A DNA stretch of 52,358 nucleotides from Opitutaceae bacterium (GTDB lineage Bacteria > Verrucomicrobiota > Verrucomicrobiia > Opitutales > Opitutaceae), in contig CANJNJ010000015.1 of NCBI GenBank assembly GCA_947474995.1, forward strand, positions 1-52,358, read 5' to 3'. The notes below the pieces were generated by a model. It had not been told where the DNA came from. It was given only the letters and a program-made list of their open reading frames with translations, and did not search any database. Position 1 is the first letter of the stretch; each line of letters starts with the position of its first letter. Shown here piece by piece: positions 5,169-43,414 of the stretch. The position numbers were made by a program, and so were the translations under genes.

Positions 5169-5613
5169 GCGCCGATTCGGATATCGAATCGAATCCAAGT
5201 GAGGTGGAGCTGGCCTCGCTGAGGCTGGCTCCGGGGTCAGCGACTCCGGCGACAATTTCCAAACGATTCGGCTGAGGTCGCGGTGGATTCTAAGCCGGAA
5301 AAATTCAGTTGAGAGTTGAAAGTTGAAAGCCAGAGCAGGAAAAAAGTTAACGGTGGTGTAGACCGCAAAAGAGGAGTCACGGATCCGTTTGCCTCGAACC
5401 CAGCCCCAAAAAGAGCGATTTCGCCCCGTCATTTATCGCTTTCAACTTTCACCTCTCAATTTTCATCTGCACGAGTCCGGCTTAGGGCGCCCCGTTGTAG
5501 GAGCGGCCTGAAACCCGGTCCCACCCGTTGCGGCGGAATCAGGATTCCTACTGAGGTCTGGCGTAGTTTCCGGCGTTGCGGGACAAAGATTCCCTGCTGA
5601 GCATCCGGACCCG
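5169..5613. other. 445-base non-coding interval inside the arn cluster, with inverted repeats
   Basis: I see no gene here. The interval holds a nested inverted-repeat element (5291-5484) and, just after it, a second small dyad: GTAGGA at 5497-5502 opposite TCCTAC at 5546-5551. The last bases before the pseudopilin may contain its promoter, but I cannot point to clear -35/-10 boxes. Confidence 0.6.
5291..5484. repeat. Nested inverted-repeat element, about 194 bp
   Basis: The outer arms TAAGCCGGA (5291-5299) and TCCGGCTTA (5476-5484) are perfect complements. Inside them lies a 22-base arm at 5309-5330 (starting TTGAGAGTTGAAAG) matched by its reverse complement at 5438-5459 with a single mismatch. 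The enclosed sequence has no coding signal. The layout resembles a small non-autonomous element; no transposase is present. Confidence 0.65.
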
Positions 5614-10272: not shown

Positions 10273-10398
10273 GACCACGGATGTACACGGATGGCACGGA
10301 TAAGGCCGAGGTGGAAAAGGCCCGCCGGTCTGATTCTTCGCCGACCGGATGATGCGGAGGGGCTCTGCGCCGGATTGAATCCGTGAAATCCGTGGTCC
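10273..10398. repeat. Inverted repeat with GACCACGGAT ends
   Basis: The left arm (from 10273, GACCACGGATGTACACGGAT) is matched in inverse orientation by 10373-10398, ending ATCCGTGGTCC, with few mismatches. It lies between the convergent arnD and lptF/G genes. The same type of arm recurs at 13876-14000. Confidence 0.7.
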
Positions 10399-11578: not shown

Positions 11579-11768
11579 GCGAAGAACCGGCGCCGAAACG
11601 CGGTGGCAGCTTCATCGCAGACCCGCCCGGCCCGCACAAGGTTTCAAACCACCGTCCGCTGCCCCAAGGCGTAGTGTCACCTATGGTGGGGTGACACTAG
11701 GGCGAAGGACGGTTGAGGCGTACAAATTGCCGGGGCGACCGGATGCAAGTCCGCGCGGGTGCGGGTTG

Positions 11769-11812
11769 GTAGTTCCGCCTTCAGGCGGAATTCCGGCTGA
11801 AGCCGGGACTAC
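11769..11812. repeat. REP-like palindrome, TTCCGCC family
   Basis: The core TTCCGCCTTCAGGCGGAA (11773-11790) is a perfect hairpin. It is followed by CCGGCTGAAGCCGG and enclosed by GTAGTTCC and GGGACTAC. Related copies lie at 16686-16756 and 28444-28505. The rest of the 264-base gap (11579-11842) shows nothing I recognise. Confidence 0.75.
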
Positions 11813-11842
11813 GAACAAAGCCTGGCCGCCATGTCGTGACGT

Positions 11843-12993: not shown

Positions 12994-13845
12994 ATGTCAC
13001 TCGGCAAAGCGCTGCGGGCGAAGCCGATCATCCGCCACGAAGGCGGGACCAGGAGCGAGCGGGCGGACGATTTTGTCGCGGTCGAGGAGCCGCTCGAAAT
13101 CCGCCTGGCCGGTCGCGCCGTCGCGGTGATTATGCGGACTCCCGGACACGATCGCGAACTGGCCGCGGGCTTTCTCGTCACGGAAGGCCTCGTGCGGCGG
13201 CGCGATGAAGTGCTTGATTTGGTGCGCTGCACGGACGGACGCACGGATGCCGCGGGGGCCGGCAATGAGAACATTCTCGACGTGTTGCTGGCGCCGGGCG
13301 TCGCGGTGGATTTCGCGCGGCTGACCCGGCATGTTTTCACGTCGTCGAGTTGTGGCATTTGCAGCCGCGCGAGCATCGAGGCGGTCCGCGGCGAATTTCC
13401 GCCGATCGCAGTCCCGCTTTCTCCCCGACGCGAAGTGCTGGCGGTGCTGCCGGAACGCCTGCGTGCGGCGCAGGCGGCGTTCGAGGTGACGGGTGGATTG
13501 CACGCCAGTGCGCTGTTTAACGCGGCGGGCGAACTCGAGGTCGTGCGCGAGGACGTGGGCCGGCACAGCGCGCTCGACAAGGTCATCGGCTGGGCGTTCT
13601 TCGGCGAACGGCTGCCGCTGGCGGGGCGAATTCTGCTGGTGAGCGGGCGCGTTTCCTTCGAAATCATGCAAAAGGCGCTCGCTGCCGGGATTTCGTGTGT
13701 CGCCTCCATTTCGGCGCCGACCAGTGCGGCCGTGGAGTTTGCGGAAGAATCCGGCCAAACCCTCGTGGGTTTTCTCCGTCCGGCGGCCGGGGTAGGACGG
13801 CAAGAGATGCGGATGAATGTTTACGCCGGCACCTTGGCCGGGTGA
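12994..13845 (+). CDS. fdhD: Formate dehydrogenase accessory sulfurtransferase
   Basis: This 283-residue cytoplasmic protein would transfer sulfur from a cysteine desulfurase to the molybdenum or tungsten cofactor of formate dehydrogenase. Recognisable segments are the EEPLEIRL opening, TPGHDRELAAGFLVTEGL, and the functional CxxC pair in SSSCGICSRAS (Cys120, Cys123). VREDVGRHSALDKVIG and LLVSGRVSFEIMQKA in the second half are family signatures. No formate dehydrogenase or molybdopterin gene is in the window, so the client lies elsewhere. Length matches the family. Confidence 0.94.
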   Translation: MSLGKALRAKPIIRHEGGTRSERADDFVAVEEPLEIRLAGRAVAVIMRTPGHDRELAAGFLVTEGLVRRRDEVLDLVRCTDGRTDAAGAGNENILDVLLAPGVAVDFARLTRHVFTSSSCGICSRASIEAVRGEFPPIAVPLSPRREVLAVLPERLRAAQAAFEVTGGLHASALFNAAGELEVVREDVGRHSALDKVIGWAFFGERLPLAGRILLVSGRVSFEIMQKALAAGISCVASISAPTSAAVEFAEESGQTLVGFLRPAAGVGRQEMRMNVYAGTLAG

Positions 13846-13875
13846 CAGTGTCGGAGTCGCCTTGCGCCCAATTTT

Positions 13876-14000
13876 TTACCACGGATTACGGATTACACAG
13901 CTAACACGGATGACCCGAACAAGAACCCAGCTCATCGCAGTGTATCTAGCCGGATTGGTCTCCGTGACATCCGTGACATCCGTGTTATTCGTGGTCGCCT
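13876..14000. repeat. Inverted repeat overlapping the 5' end of the TPR gene
   Basis: The left arm around 13876-13912 (TTACCACGGATTACGGATTA...) and the right arm around 13959-14000 (ending TCCGTGTTATTCGTGGTCGC) are imperfect inverse copies. They resemble the element at 10273-10398. The left arm contains the ATG of the TPR gene and the right arm encodes the hydrophobic core of its signal peptide. Confidence 0.65.
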
Positions 14001-14818
14001 TGTCTCTGGGTTGGTCGGCTCCGCTGCGCGCGGCGGAAGGCGACTCCATGGCGGAGCGTTCACTGAAGCGGATCGCGGAGAAGCAGCGCGAGCTTTTGAC
14101 CGAGGCGGCGAAAGCGGGTGACGCCCTCGACGCTCCGACTTTTCAGACCCAGGTACAGTCGGTCGCCCACGAGTACGAGCTGCTCCTGCGCAACAACCCC
14201 AGTTTTGCCGCGGGCTACGCCGCCTACGGTTTTTTGCTTGGCAAAGTGGGCATGAGCAAAGAAGCGGCCTCGATGTTGCTCAAGGCCAACCAGCTCGACC
14301 CCGACATTCCGCTGGTGAAGAACCAGCTCGGCAACCATCTCGCGGAGGACGGCAAGCCCCTGCAGGCGGCGCCCTATTACATCGCGGCCATCAAGCTCGC
14401 GCCCAACGAGCCGCTGTACCACTACCAACTCGGCACGCTGCTGGTGGAAGCGCGGGACGATTTTATCAAAAGCGGAGAATGGACGCGCGCGTCGCTCGAC
14501 GAGGCGGTGCATCACGCCTTTCAACGCGCCGCCGAACTCGCGCCGGGCCGCTTTGAGTTCGCCTACCGGTACGCGGAATCCTTTTACGACCTCGAGCATC
14601 CGGATTGGAATGAGGCCCTGAAGGCGTGGAGTGGGCTGGAGGAAAAGGCGCCGACGGCCATCGAACGCCAGACGATGCGCCTCCATGCGGCCAATATTTG
14701 CCTGAAGCTGGGCAAGCGGGAACACGCGCAGGCGCTGATTGCCACCGTCGACGAGCCCAAATTGCAGGGGCAGAAGCAAAAGCTCGTTGCCGAACTCGCG
14801 GAAACCGCGAAGAAGTGA
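13910..14818 (+). CDS. Exported tetratricopeptide-repeat protein
   Basis: This 302-residue protein has a predicted signal peptide (residues 1 to about 42: MTRTRTQ, then LVSVTSVTSVLFVVALSLG, with a likely cut near LRAA-EG). TPR-like helical repeats follow, for example NPSFAAGYAAYGFLLGKVGM, ANQLDPDIPLVKNQLGNHLA and AIKLAPNEPLYHYQLGTLLV. Such repeats mediate protein contacts; no catalytic motif is seen. The frame is open further upstream, but the ATG at 13910 gives a sensible signal sequence. An internal ATG at 14048 would yield a cytoplasmic form. The whole leader lies in a dispersed inverted repeat. Function is unknown. Confidence 0.8.
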   Translation: MTRTRTQLIAVYLAGLVSVTSVTSVLFVVALSLGWSAPLRAAEGDSMAERSLKRIAEKQRELLTEAAKAGDALDAPTFQTQVQSVAHEYELLLRNNPSFAAGYAAYGFLLGKVGMSKEAASMLLKANQLDPDIPLVKNQLGNHLAEDGKPLQAAPYYIAAIKLAPNEPLYHYQLGTLLVEARDDFIKSGEWTRASLDEAVHHAFQRAAELAPGRFEFAYRYAESFYDLEHPDWNEALKAWSGLEEKAPTAIERQTMRLHAANICLKLGKREHAQALIATVDEPKLQGQKQKLVAELAETAKK

Positions 14819-15772: not shown

Positions 15773-16697
15773 TCTCTTTGCCGACACCGCCGGGCGGGTG
15801 ACGCTCGGGGACTGGCTGGCGTTTGCCGAGAAGGCGTATGCGCGGCGACGGGTCGCGCTCGGGCAGGTCGCCACGAACGCCCACGACGAGGCGTTGTATC
15901 TTTTGCTGCGCACGCTCGAACTGCCGCTTGCCAGTGATGCCCGTGTGCTGACTAAAAAACTTTCGAAGTCGGCGCGGGCTGCCGTCGAAGCGGTGCTGCG
16001 CCGTCGGATTCTCGAACGGGTGCCGGCGGCCTACCTGACGCGCGAGGCCTGGCTCGGCGAACACCGCTTCTACGTCGACGAGCGGGTCATCATCCCACGC
16101 AGCTATTTTCTGGAAATCATCCCGGAGCAGCTCGCGGCCTGGCTGCCCGCCGGCCGGAAAGTGGCGCGCGTCGTCGATGTCGGCACGGGTGCCGGCTGCC
16201 TCGCGATCCTGCTGGCGCATCAATTTCGCCACGCGCAGGTGGATGCCTGCGATCTTTCCCCCGCGGCCCTGGAAGTGGCCAAGATTAACGTGCAGGCCCA
16301 CCGGCTCGGGCGGCGCGTGCACCTGCACCTCAGCGATGTGCTTTCGGCGGTGCCGTCGGCAAAGTACGACGTGATTCTCAGCAATCCGCCCTACGAGCCC
16401 AGCGAGCTGGTTGATGCGCAGGCGCCGGAATTTGCCGCCGAACCGCGGCTGGCGCACGACGGCGGCCGCGATGGGCTCGGGATCATTCGGCGACTCCTGG
16501 AGCAGGCGCGCACGCGTCTGCAGCCGCACGGCATCGTGGCGATTGAGGTCGGCGGGTTGCGGTCGGCCGTAGATCGGGAATTTGCGGCGCTCGAACCGCA
16601 CTGGCTCCACACGGCCGATGGATCGGACTGCGTCGTGCTTTTCAACGCGGCGCGCCTAGCCGCGTGGAAACCAGCGGTTAAGGTCCGTCGTTCGTAG
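15753..16697 (+). CDS. prmB: Ribosomal protein L3 glutamine N5-methyltransferase (PrmB-like)
   Basis: This 314-residue SAM-dependent methyltransferase has the SAM-binding loop VVDVGTGAGCLAI (residues 140-152) and the catalytic NPPYEPSE motif (211-218), which positions a glutamine amide. The N-terminal ERVPAAYLTREAWLGEHRFYVDERVIIPRS closely follows the PrmB pattern rather than PrmC. L3 is therefore the likely substrate, although a release-factor methyltransferase cannot be fully excluded. I start at MKSKPADLF; a longer upstream frame is antisense-like reading within the preceding gene. The 20-base overlap suggests coupled translation with the rhomboid-like gene. Confidence 0.86.
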   Translation: MKSKPADLFADTAGRVTLGDWLAFAEKAYARRRVALGQVATNAHDEALYLLLRTLELPLASDARVLTKKLSKSARAAVEAVLRRRILERVPAAYLTREAWLGEHRFYVDERVIIPRSYFLEIIPEQLAAWLPAGRKVARVVDVGTGAGCLAILLAHQFRHAQVDACDLSPAALEVAKINVQAHRLGRRVHLHLSDVLSAVPSAKYDVILSNPPYEPSELVDAQAPEFAAEPRLAHDGGRDGLGIIRRLLEQARTRLQPHGIVAIEVGGLRSAVDREFAALEPHWLHTADGSDCVVLFNAARLAAWKPAVKVRRS

Positions 16698-16756
16698 TTC
16701 CACCTTCAGGCGGAAGGCTTGTTCCGGTCAGATTCCGCCTAAAGGCGGAACGACGG
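16686..16756. repeat. REP-like palindrome, TTCCGCC family (second copy)
   Basis: The core TTCCGCCTAAAGGCGGAA (16733-16750) is a perfect hairpin, preceded by an imperfect partner (GTTCCACCTTCAGGCGGAAG, 16697-16716). Outer GTCGTTC and GAACGAC ends are complementary. It lies between the convergent prmB and rhodanese genes and overlaps the prmB 3' end slightly. Confidence 0.75.
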
Positions 16757-16773
16757 GCACGGAGACATTGAAA

Positions 16774-24526: not shown

Positions 24527-24606
24527 TCCTTGGCCCCCCGGCGCGCCGTGTCCCGGAGCCGCCCTAAGTTTCCGGCTCATGGCCCTCCCATCCGCCCCCT
24601 GGGCGT

Positions 24607-24631
24607 GTTTGTCATCTAATAGATGACAAAC
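24607..24631. repeat. 25-base perfect palindrome (copy 1)
   Basis: Arms GTTTGTCATCT and AGATGACAAAC surround an AAT centre. An identical copy lies at 42071-42095. It sits between the 3' ends of arsR and the class V aminotransferase gene. No T-run follows. The rest of the 250-base gap has no recognisable feature. Confidence 0.8.
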
Positions 24632-24776
24632 GGGCGCGGGAACTTTGGTTGACTGCGGTGGTGGGATCCGCGGGCGCCGCACCAAAAATGCGGGACGGAA
24701 GCCAAGTCCGATTCGGGTGGGAAGCGTCGACCGCGGACAGGGCCCGGGGCAGGGGTCGTTGCGCGCGAGCGCCGGT

Positions 24777-28314: not shown

Positions 28315-28443
28315 CGGATGTGGCACCAAAGCACTCGCCCCGCCGGGTGGCAAGGGAGCGAACAGGGTTATGACGCGAGGCTTTTGGCGTCGCTCAAAGC
28401 CGGGGGACTTCCCTGTGGGGCGAAATGGCGGTGCTTCGAGTTC

Positions 28444-28505
28444 GTCGTTCCGCCTTTAGGCGGAAGGGGGTGGTCATCCTAGATTCCGCCGGAAGGCGGA
28501 ACGAC
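28444..28505. repeat. REP-like palindrome pair, TTCCGCC family (third copy)
   Basis: Two hairpins, TTCCGCCTTTAGGCGGAA (28448-28465) and TTCCGCCGGAAGGCGGAA (28484-28501), face each other. The outer GTCGTTCCGCC and GGCGGAACGAC ends are complementary. This BIME-like pair lies between yebC and metX. Confidence 0.8.
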
Positions 28506-28526
28506 CAACCAATCAACAATCCCCGC

Positions 28527-42014: not shown

Positions 42015-42070
42015 GATGCCCCGGGTTGATGGCGTTGCTCCCCGCCCGAAGCAAGCGCCACGTGGGGCGC

Positions 42071-42095
42071 GTTTGTCATCTAATAGATGACAAAC
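42071..42095. repeat. 25-base perfect palindrome (copy 2)
   Basis: It is identical in all 25 bases to 24607-24631 (GTTTGTCATCT-AAT-AGATGACAAAC). It lies 56 bases upstream of the ppnP start, in the gap before the LysM gene's 3' end. Confidence 0.8.
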
Positions 42096-42151
42096 GGAGC
42101 GAGGTTGCCGCATGGCGGCCCGGTGGGGAACGATGCCACCCGGATGACTCG

Positions 42152-43414
42152 TCAGGGAGGCGGGATCCGCAATTCCATCCCTGGCTGGAGCGGCCGGCCG
42201 GCCCCGAGCAGCTTGGAGTTTGCTTCCAGAATGGAGCGCCAGCGCTCGGGGTCGTCGTAATACCGCCGGGCGATATTCCGCAGGGTGTCGCCGGCCTGGA
42301 CCAGATAAACCCGGATGACGGGCTTGGTGCTTTCACGGCCGACGTTGACCCGGCTGGGATTGGTTCGGAATTCAGCCGTGGCGGCGACTCGGGTCGGTGG
42401 GGCCTTGGCGATTTCCGGTGCGGCCGGATTGGGCGTCGACGATCCCAGGCTGGACGCGGCGGACGCGTTCTGGGCGATGGCGGCGGCGAGTTCGGCGCGC
42501 GCGGCCGCGGTCGCTTGTTCGGCCCGACGGCGGGCATCTTTCTGTTCGAGGAGTTCGGCGCTGAGCTGGGTGAGGGTGGCTTGCACCTGATGGTTGCTCG
42601 CCACGATGTTCTTCAATTCGGCATTTAGTGCCACGTTTTCGGTGCGGGCGCGTTCGAGGTCGGCCTTGGCGGCGACTTCGGAAGGTGAGGCCTGGGCGAT
42701 TTCCGGTACGATCGGACGGGGCGGTAACGGCGCCCGGTCGGATTCGGTGGACGTGTTCTGGGCCACGCCGGCGGCCAGTTCGGCGCGCGCGGCGGCGGTC
42801 GCTTGTTCGGCCCGGCTCCGGGCTTCTTTCTGCTCGAGGAGCTCCGCGCTGAGCTGGGTCAGAGTGCCTTGAGCCTGATCGTTGCTCGCCACGACGTTCT
42901 TGAACCGCGCGTTCAGGGCCACGTTTTCGTGGCGGGCGCGCTCGAGATCAGTCCGGAGTTGGGCGGTTTCCTCCTGCAATTGCGTGTACGTCCGAAGCGA
43001 GGTCGCCAGTTTTTCCTCGAGCTCGGAGACCTTGGCGCCGGACGCGGACACCGCGTCGCTGGCCGTTTTGGCGGCCGCGTTGCTGGCCGCACGCTCGGCC
43101 GAAAGTTTGGCATAACTGGCCCGCAACGTGGCGAGTTCGCGGGTCGTTTCATTCAGCCGCGCGACGGACTCGGGCGATCGGCCGCCGTTGGGGTTGTGGT
43201 CAAGGGCGGTGCGCAAGGCGTCCCCTTCCTTTCGGGCCAGCGCCAATTCCTGCTGCAGGACCTTTCGCTCGAGGCTGAGCTCAGCGACCGCCTGGGCCGG
43301 CGCGGCCTCGCCCGTCAGCTCCACGTTCGAAGTCCCGCGCCGAAAATGCGTCAGACTGCAGCCCGCCAGGAGCGGAAGCAGGACGGCGGCGAGAATGGCC
43401 CGAATAATGAACAT
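42152..43414 (-). CDS. LysM-domain coiled-coil lipoprotein
   Basis: This 420-residue protein has a lipoprotein signal (AAVLLPLLAGCS, Cys19), a long Ala/Glu/Leu-rich coiled coil (about residues 45-345) and a C-terminal LysM domain (about 370-418: VYLVQAGDTLRNIARRYYDD, ILEANSKLLGAGRPLQPGM). LysM binds peptidoglycan glycans, so the protein may link a membrane to the cell wall. Inside the coiled coil a 96-residue unit is duplicated in tandem. A paralogous protein is encoded at 48699-50063. I start at MFIIRAILA; a further 13 upstream codons are possible. Confidence 0.85.
   Translation of the reverse strand: MFIIRAILAAVLLPLLAGCSLTHFRRGTSNVELTGEAAPAQAVAELSLERKVLQQELALARKEGDALRTALDHNPNGGRSPESVARLNETTRELATLRASYAKLSAERAASNAAAKTASDAVSASGAKVSELEEKLATSLRTYTQLQEETAQLRTDLERARHENVALNARFKNVVASNDQAQGTLTQLSAELLEQKEARSRAEQATAAARAELAAGVAQNTSTESDRAPLPPRPIVPEIAQASPSEVAAKADLERARTENVALNAELKNIVASNHQVQATLTQLSAELLEQKDARRRAEQATAAARAELAAAIAQNASAASSLGSSTPNPAAPEIAKAPPTRVAATAEFRTNPSRVNVGRESTKPVIRVYLVQAGDTLRNIARRYYDDPERWRSILEANSKLLGAGRPLQPGMELRIPPP
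42371..42949 (-). repeat. Tandem 288-bp duplication within the LysM gene
   Basis: Two adjacent units of 96-97 codons (42662-42949 and 42371-42661) encode near-identical coiled-coil segments. Each starts DLERAR-x-ENVALNA and contains TQLSAELLEQK and RAEQATAAARAELAA. The paralogue at 48699 has only one such unit. Confidence 0.8.

Follow-up and report, generated by a model that had tools for sequence, protein, structure and literature searches.

A gene-less, MITE-like element has probably inserted at the start of a gene whose product, a TPR protein, was already exported, and there it now seems to supply both the start codon and the n-region of the signal peptide. The gene lies in a 52,358-nucleotide stretch of an Opitutaceae genome; we refer to the whole stretch as the window. 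The insertion point would be the ancestral start codon, with a conserved motif on its 5' side and the codons of the signal peptide on its 3' side. Translation would now begin at an ATG in the left arm of the element (ACACGG-ATG) and run into a basic n-region, which reads MTRTR in this genome and MTRIRK or MKRIRKK in others, with the right arm, where retained, lengthening the hydrophobic region. Export would have been kept, not created, since the old cleavage region and the mature protein are unchanged. Full copies of the element class would carry a predicted nuclease gene of the GxxExxY family (PF13366) between their arms. This reading was drawn, by sequence, from the position and frame of the element, orthologues with and without it, the link between arms and GxxExxY genes, and empty sites.

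The element at the start of the TPR gene

The element is a fold-back of two CCACGGAT-type arms (Table 1). The left arm carries the ATG of the TPR gene (13910–13912), and the right arm, CTCCGTGACATCCGTGACATCCGTGTTATTCGTGGT, reads SVTSVTSVLFVV in the TPR frame. The word TCCGTGNNATCCGTG, with up to 2 mismatches, has 10 matches versus 1.9 expected, a number reached in 0 of 100 shuffles, and tandem TCCGTG units are more numerous than in any shuffle. The pattern CCACGGATN{0,6}ACGGAT matches 13 times in the own genome and its reverse 0 times; across 27 genomes of the genus, the arm pattern was found in 19 (1 to 44 hits each, 0 in the rest) and the reversed pattern in none. The repeat is confirmed as a real element: the sequence and the reversed-pattern controls agree with the initial annotation that this is a dispersed inverted repeat with the TPR start codon in its left arm. 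The further copy placed by that annotation in non-coding DNA at 10273–10398 is likewise present, between converging gene ends. As in MITEs, the element is short (~120 nt), has terminal inverted repeats, lacks a transposase gene, is multicopy and is present or absent at orthologous sites. TGAG flanks one copy in genome G020 on both sides, a possible target-site duplication. An Rfam search over 13700–14200 gave no match. Both window copies are predicted to fold as hairpins, with an RNA fold z of −2.3 at the TPR gene and −3.6 at 10.3 kb; in the former, the TPR ATG is base-paired.

Table 1 Features at the TPR locus and the second copy of the element
Feature	Position	Strand	Remarks
fdhD	12994..13845	+	5' neighbour in many relatives
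Upstream motif GGCACC-N14-GTGTCG	13828..13853	+	Conserved; possible promoter
Left arm, CCACGGAT units	about 13878..13912	+	ACCACGGATTACGGATTACACAGCTAACACGGATGA; same arm in 14 orthologues
TPR protein gene	13910..14818	+	302 aa; predicted to be exported; homologues conserved in 52/57 relatives
Signal peptide MTRTRTQLIAVYLAGLVSVTSVTSVLFVVALSLGWSAPLRA	13910..14032	+	Predicted cleavage after LRA; LRA-AE junction conserved in orthologues
Inner spacer, 47 nt	13913..13959	+	Differs from lineage to lineage
Right arm, tandem TCCGTGACA units	13960..13996	+	From window sequence and shuffle test
Second, non-coding copy of the element	about 10275..10397		Flanked by two converging gene ends

The gene product gives TPR matches. 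The GGCACC-N14-GTGTCG motif is kept before the gene even where the upstream neighbour is not fdhD, and may be its promoter. As a regulon motif, GGCACC-N-GTGTCG was rejected: the own genome holds 6 hits versus 5 for the control, with no enrichment.

By hydropathy and charge, the TPR leader resembles a Sec signal peptide, with a basic n-region, a hydrophobic h-region and a small residue at −1, and it probably functions as one. The n-region comes from the left arm and half of the h-region from the right arm; the end of the h-region and the c-region come from the host. The initial annotation had assigned the hydrophobic core to the right arm; the strongest hydrophobic stretch, VTSVLFVVALSL, straddles the point where the right arm gives way to host sequence. 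The only good start is ATG 13910, with the basic leader MTRTR within the left arm, and we infer that translation begins there. A start at 14048, which had been named as an outcome that would overturn a repeat-borne leader, would delete the signal peptide kept by the family: no hydrophobic stretch follows it (best 12-residue window −0.58 versus 2.1–3.2 for the leaders).

Leaders of the TPR orthologues

A contig scan yielded 64 TPR loci from Opitutaceae-like Verrucomicrobiota MAGs, some from the same genomes. Of about 62 orthologues whose leader could be read, 14 have a CCACGGAT-type arm between the upstream motif and the TPR gene (the own genome, L197, L198, L199, L200, L203, L208, L213, L216, L217, L219, L220, L223 and L245). 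In all 14 the arm occupies the same place and the same frame, with ATTACACGGATG read as I-T-R-M and no stop up to the conserved body; the ITR-M reading is slightly altered in L200 and L245. The resulting leaders begin MTRIRK, MKRIRKK, MKRMH, MKRIT and similar, with K/R after the ATG in most. In L199 and L208, the arm ATG would imply an n-region of 43–90 residues, so the real start may be further downstream. The own genome, L213 and L217 retain a clear right arm, L208 keeps part of it and in the others it is eroded; loss of this arm in most lineages may free the ATG from pairing in the mRNA hairpin.

Nearly all repeat-free orthologues, whether of the same genus or of others, have a compact signal peptide of their own (for example MKFPAAALLVLLAAVLAPAPLRA in G015 and MKRLLLFGLLVFSFALVRA in G022); in most, it starts at its own ATG about 12–24 nt past the upstream motif. 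Both kinds of leader have signal-peptide-like charge and hydropathy. Comparing leaders between orthologues, as had been suggested initially, found the ITRM leader in no repeat-free genome. In G013, an ancestral-looking ATG is still present immediately 5' of the element (CCCATGATTAACCGCGG). Among the closest orthologues compared, the leader changes faster than the body, with gaps that preserve the frame; a codon-position test of the leader gave only a weak third-position bias (4, 3 and 5 in the closest pair).

These leaders bear on two other accounts of the TPR start. The initial annotation held that capture of the repeat had made a formerly cytoplasmic protein exported. The arms do encode the n-region and part of the h-region in the own genome, but the signal peptides of repeat-free orthologues in the same and other genera contradict this account, which we consider highly improbable. 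Because those orthologues have compact signal peptides of their own, export is, judged from the leaders, older than the insertion, and the repeat rewrote the leader without creating export. Translation could also start at the in-frame GTG 13940, or at another codon in or after the element, with the left arm merely part of a 5' leader RNA. In-frame GTG and TTG codons are present and the predicted hairpin takes up the ATG in a stem, both of which favour such a start; however, a leader from this weaker GTG has no basic residue ahead of the core, and the arm ATG is common to the 14 orthologues, next to K/R residues in most. A start downstream of the arm ATG is therefore unlikely.

GxxExxY predicted-nuclease genes and the arm class

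GxxExxY genes (TIGR04256) occur in 25 of the 27 genus genomes and in 52 of 115 genomes of the phylum. They are flanked by inverted repeats of tandem 9–10-nt words (CACGGAG, CACGAAG, CACTGATG, CACTAAT, CACGAA, CACAGAG, CACGGAT and others), and the inverted-repeat score of the flanks exceeds the 99th percentile of random windows of the same geometry at 49 of 59 loci. Among 37 cases, the left arm includes or adjoins the ATG of the gene in 18, and the right arm includes or adjoins its stop in 21. The protein belongs to PF13366 (PDDEXK_3) by profile and has an invariant D..E-x-K. A sequence search for solved structures of GxxExxY proteins found none. A structure model (pLDDT 94.5) compared with solved folds has nucleases as its nearest neighbours, the Cas4-like SSO0001 at the top (Z 9.4) and Holliday-junction resolvases at Z 6.5, the lower Z values not being telling alone. 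Plasmid-borne GxxExxY genes have clear arms in Gemmatirosa (hairpins on both sides), Bacteroides, Bernardetia and Sphingomonas, and thus in Gemmatimonadota, Bacteroidota and Pseudomonadota; those of Persicobacter, Fusobacteria and Prevotella have no clear arms, and the Treponema case is marginal.

The window element belongs to this class in having inverted arms built from tandem 9–10-nt words. As just 47 nt separate its arms, with no GxxExxY gene, we call it a gene-less derivative and not a full member. This reading is favoured because GxxExxY genes lie between arms of the CACGGAT word in the same genus (L305, L306 and L144/L176). The GxxExxY nuclease is the candidate for mobilizing the element. 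A literature search, with most subscription journals outside its coverage, returned no account of a link between GxxExxY genes and such arms. On a wider reading, to which we give an even chance, minimal elements in several phyla would consist of one PD-(D/E)XK nuclease gene between inverted tandem-word arms and would give rise to gene-less derivatives. Inserted at a gene junction, such elements could replace the downstream start codon and overlap it with their own stop, so that even the core gene gatB would now begin within a selfish-looking repeat.

Mobility, recurrence and known systems

Two copies in G020, both inserted at or just past the start of the downstream gene, are absent from the orthologous sites in G015 and G017, which shows gain or loss, and at one of these sites G017 holds a different palindrome. 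This one is of TTGTCATTGCGAGGAGCG type and sits at the gene start where G020 has its CACGGAT element (L341, ~1893–2115).

Across one genus (L308–L331), the gatA–gatB junction holds GxxExxY elements, solitary elements of various words, remnants or nothing: a GxxExxY element in 6 genomes, a solitary other-word element in 5 and a remnant in 1, with an empty junction (TGATG overlap) in G000. The word at the junction varies between sister genomes. In 11 of the 24 genomes, no in-frame ATG precedes the core of gatB; in G020, G022, G008, G016 and G018, the gene has no in-frame ATG and its only usable starts are right-arm GTGs. The right-arm GTG region before gatB reads SVTSVTHSVPSVS, which resembles the TPR leader; the first GTG overlaps the GxxExxY stop as GTGA in G022 and G020. 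A third candidate is in L057, where the reading frame of an exported protein begins within a CACGGAT element (MNTDRT...SSVLSVVKKFLSAALL...). In L080, a gluQ-like gene, named by sequence motif, has a GTG at the end of an arm as its sole near start. General targeting of start codons was considered and is not supported, as an arm is found within 20 nt of only 9 of 59 neighbouring gene starts, compared with 18 of 74 stops; starts are captured occasionally and not as a rule.

Two accounts of how the element came to its sites can be weighed against these data. The repeats might be stationary hairpins under selection, as terminators or mRNA stabilizers, with the match to the TPR frame incidental; most solitary copies with two callable neighbours do lie between codirectional genes. 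We nevertheless regard stationary hairpins as improbable, given that copies are present at some orthologous sites and absent at others, that hits are scattered, with 0 to 44 per genome, and that sister genomes carry unlike words at one and the same junction. A closer question is whether the TPR gene was hit once or repeatedly. A single ancient insertion, inherited and then lost in most lineages, would mean one capture event, and we give it somewhat less than an even chance. In its favour, place and frame are identical in all 14, and the variant ACACGGATGAAACGG is common to three lineages (L213/L217, L203–L223 and L245) across a deep split, elsewhere being found in about 2 of 182 arms fetched, which argues for some common descent. 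Against it, the element is scattered on a tree built from TPR, FdhD and a neighbouring membrane protein, on which a single gain requires 16 losses whereas 8 gains are enough at equal costs; element-free sister genomes show clean short leaders; inner spacers are unmatched across lineages; and the K-R codon pair after the ATG may have been convergently selected. Furthermore, other palindrome families occupy the same spot in G005, G004, L225 and L226, with a second one nested in L199, indicating that the spot receives repeated insertions. A shared flank, CCCAATTTTTT, was rejected as proof of a single origin, as it resembles the family consensus. The palindromes noted at the pre-TPR spot are GTAGGGCGGG, TCGATTTTGGATT, GTTTCCCGGGA and GGCGGTTTCC (L225, L226, L016, L017 and L199).

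Palindromic elements are known to serve as protein-coding sequence in a few lineages, mostly where they have inserted within genes. A signal peptide derived from a MITE has been proposed before, for the Yersinia YPAL/RU-2 element fused to YPO1552 (PMC2229807). There too, a small inverted-repeat element provides a reading frame that forms part of a predicted signal peptide; however, that fusion was proposed to make a new exported protein, whereas here export appears ancestral, and the present element is found at the same gene in many lineages and belongs to a GxxExxY-linked class. Rickettsia palindromic elements are in-frame palindromes inside genes of unrelated function (PMC2229807, PMC10969869); compared by architecture only, they sit inside coding sequences, whereas the TPR element appears to replace the start, is built of tandem 9–10-nt words and occurs in another phylum. 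REP/RAYT repeats (PMC3733652) are also short palindromes with many intergenic copies but, compared by their arms, lack tandem words and have GTAG or CGTC tags in place of a CCACGG start. Full GxxExxY elements (TIGR04256, PF13366) share the arm architecture, some with the same CACGGAT word, and differ from the window copy in having the gene. What is new here is the recurrence, the nuclease link and the start-codon replacement. One element type appears to supply start codons repeatedly, both to the gene of an exported protein and to gatB, and is itself tied to a named nuclease family for whose biology we found no account. This raises testable questions about what mobilizes these common repeats and how genes survive the loss of a start codon, and it cautions that starts annotated close to such repeats may be wrong.

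The window contains further repeats. An inverted repeat at 5290–5329 and 5446–5485 has tandem GTTGAAA-like words in its arms and the same layout as the TPR element. A palindrome, GTTTGTCATCTAATAGATGACAAAC, occurs in two copies that are 97% identical (24601–24633 and 42065–42097), and a dispersed palindrome family is built around TTCCGCCTTCAGGCGGAA (11753–11816, 16678–16764 and 28428–28510). Finally, a 288-nt tandem duplication with 80% identity spans 42372–42947.
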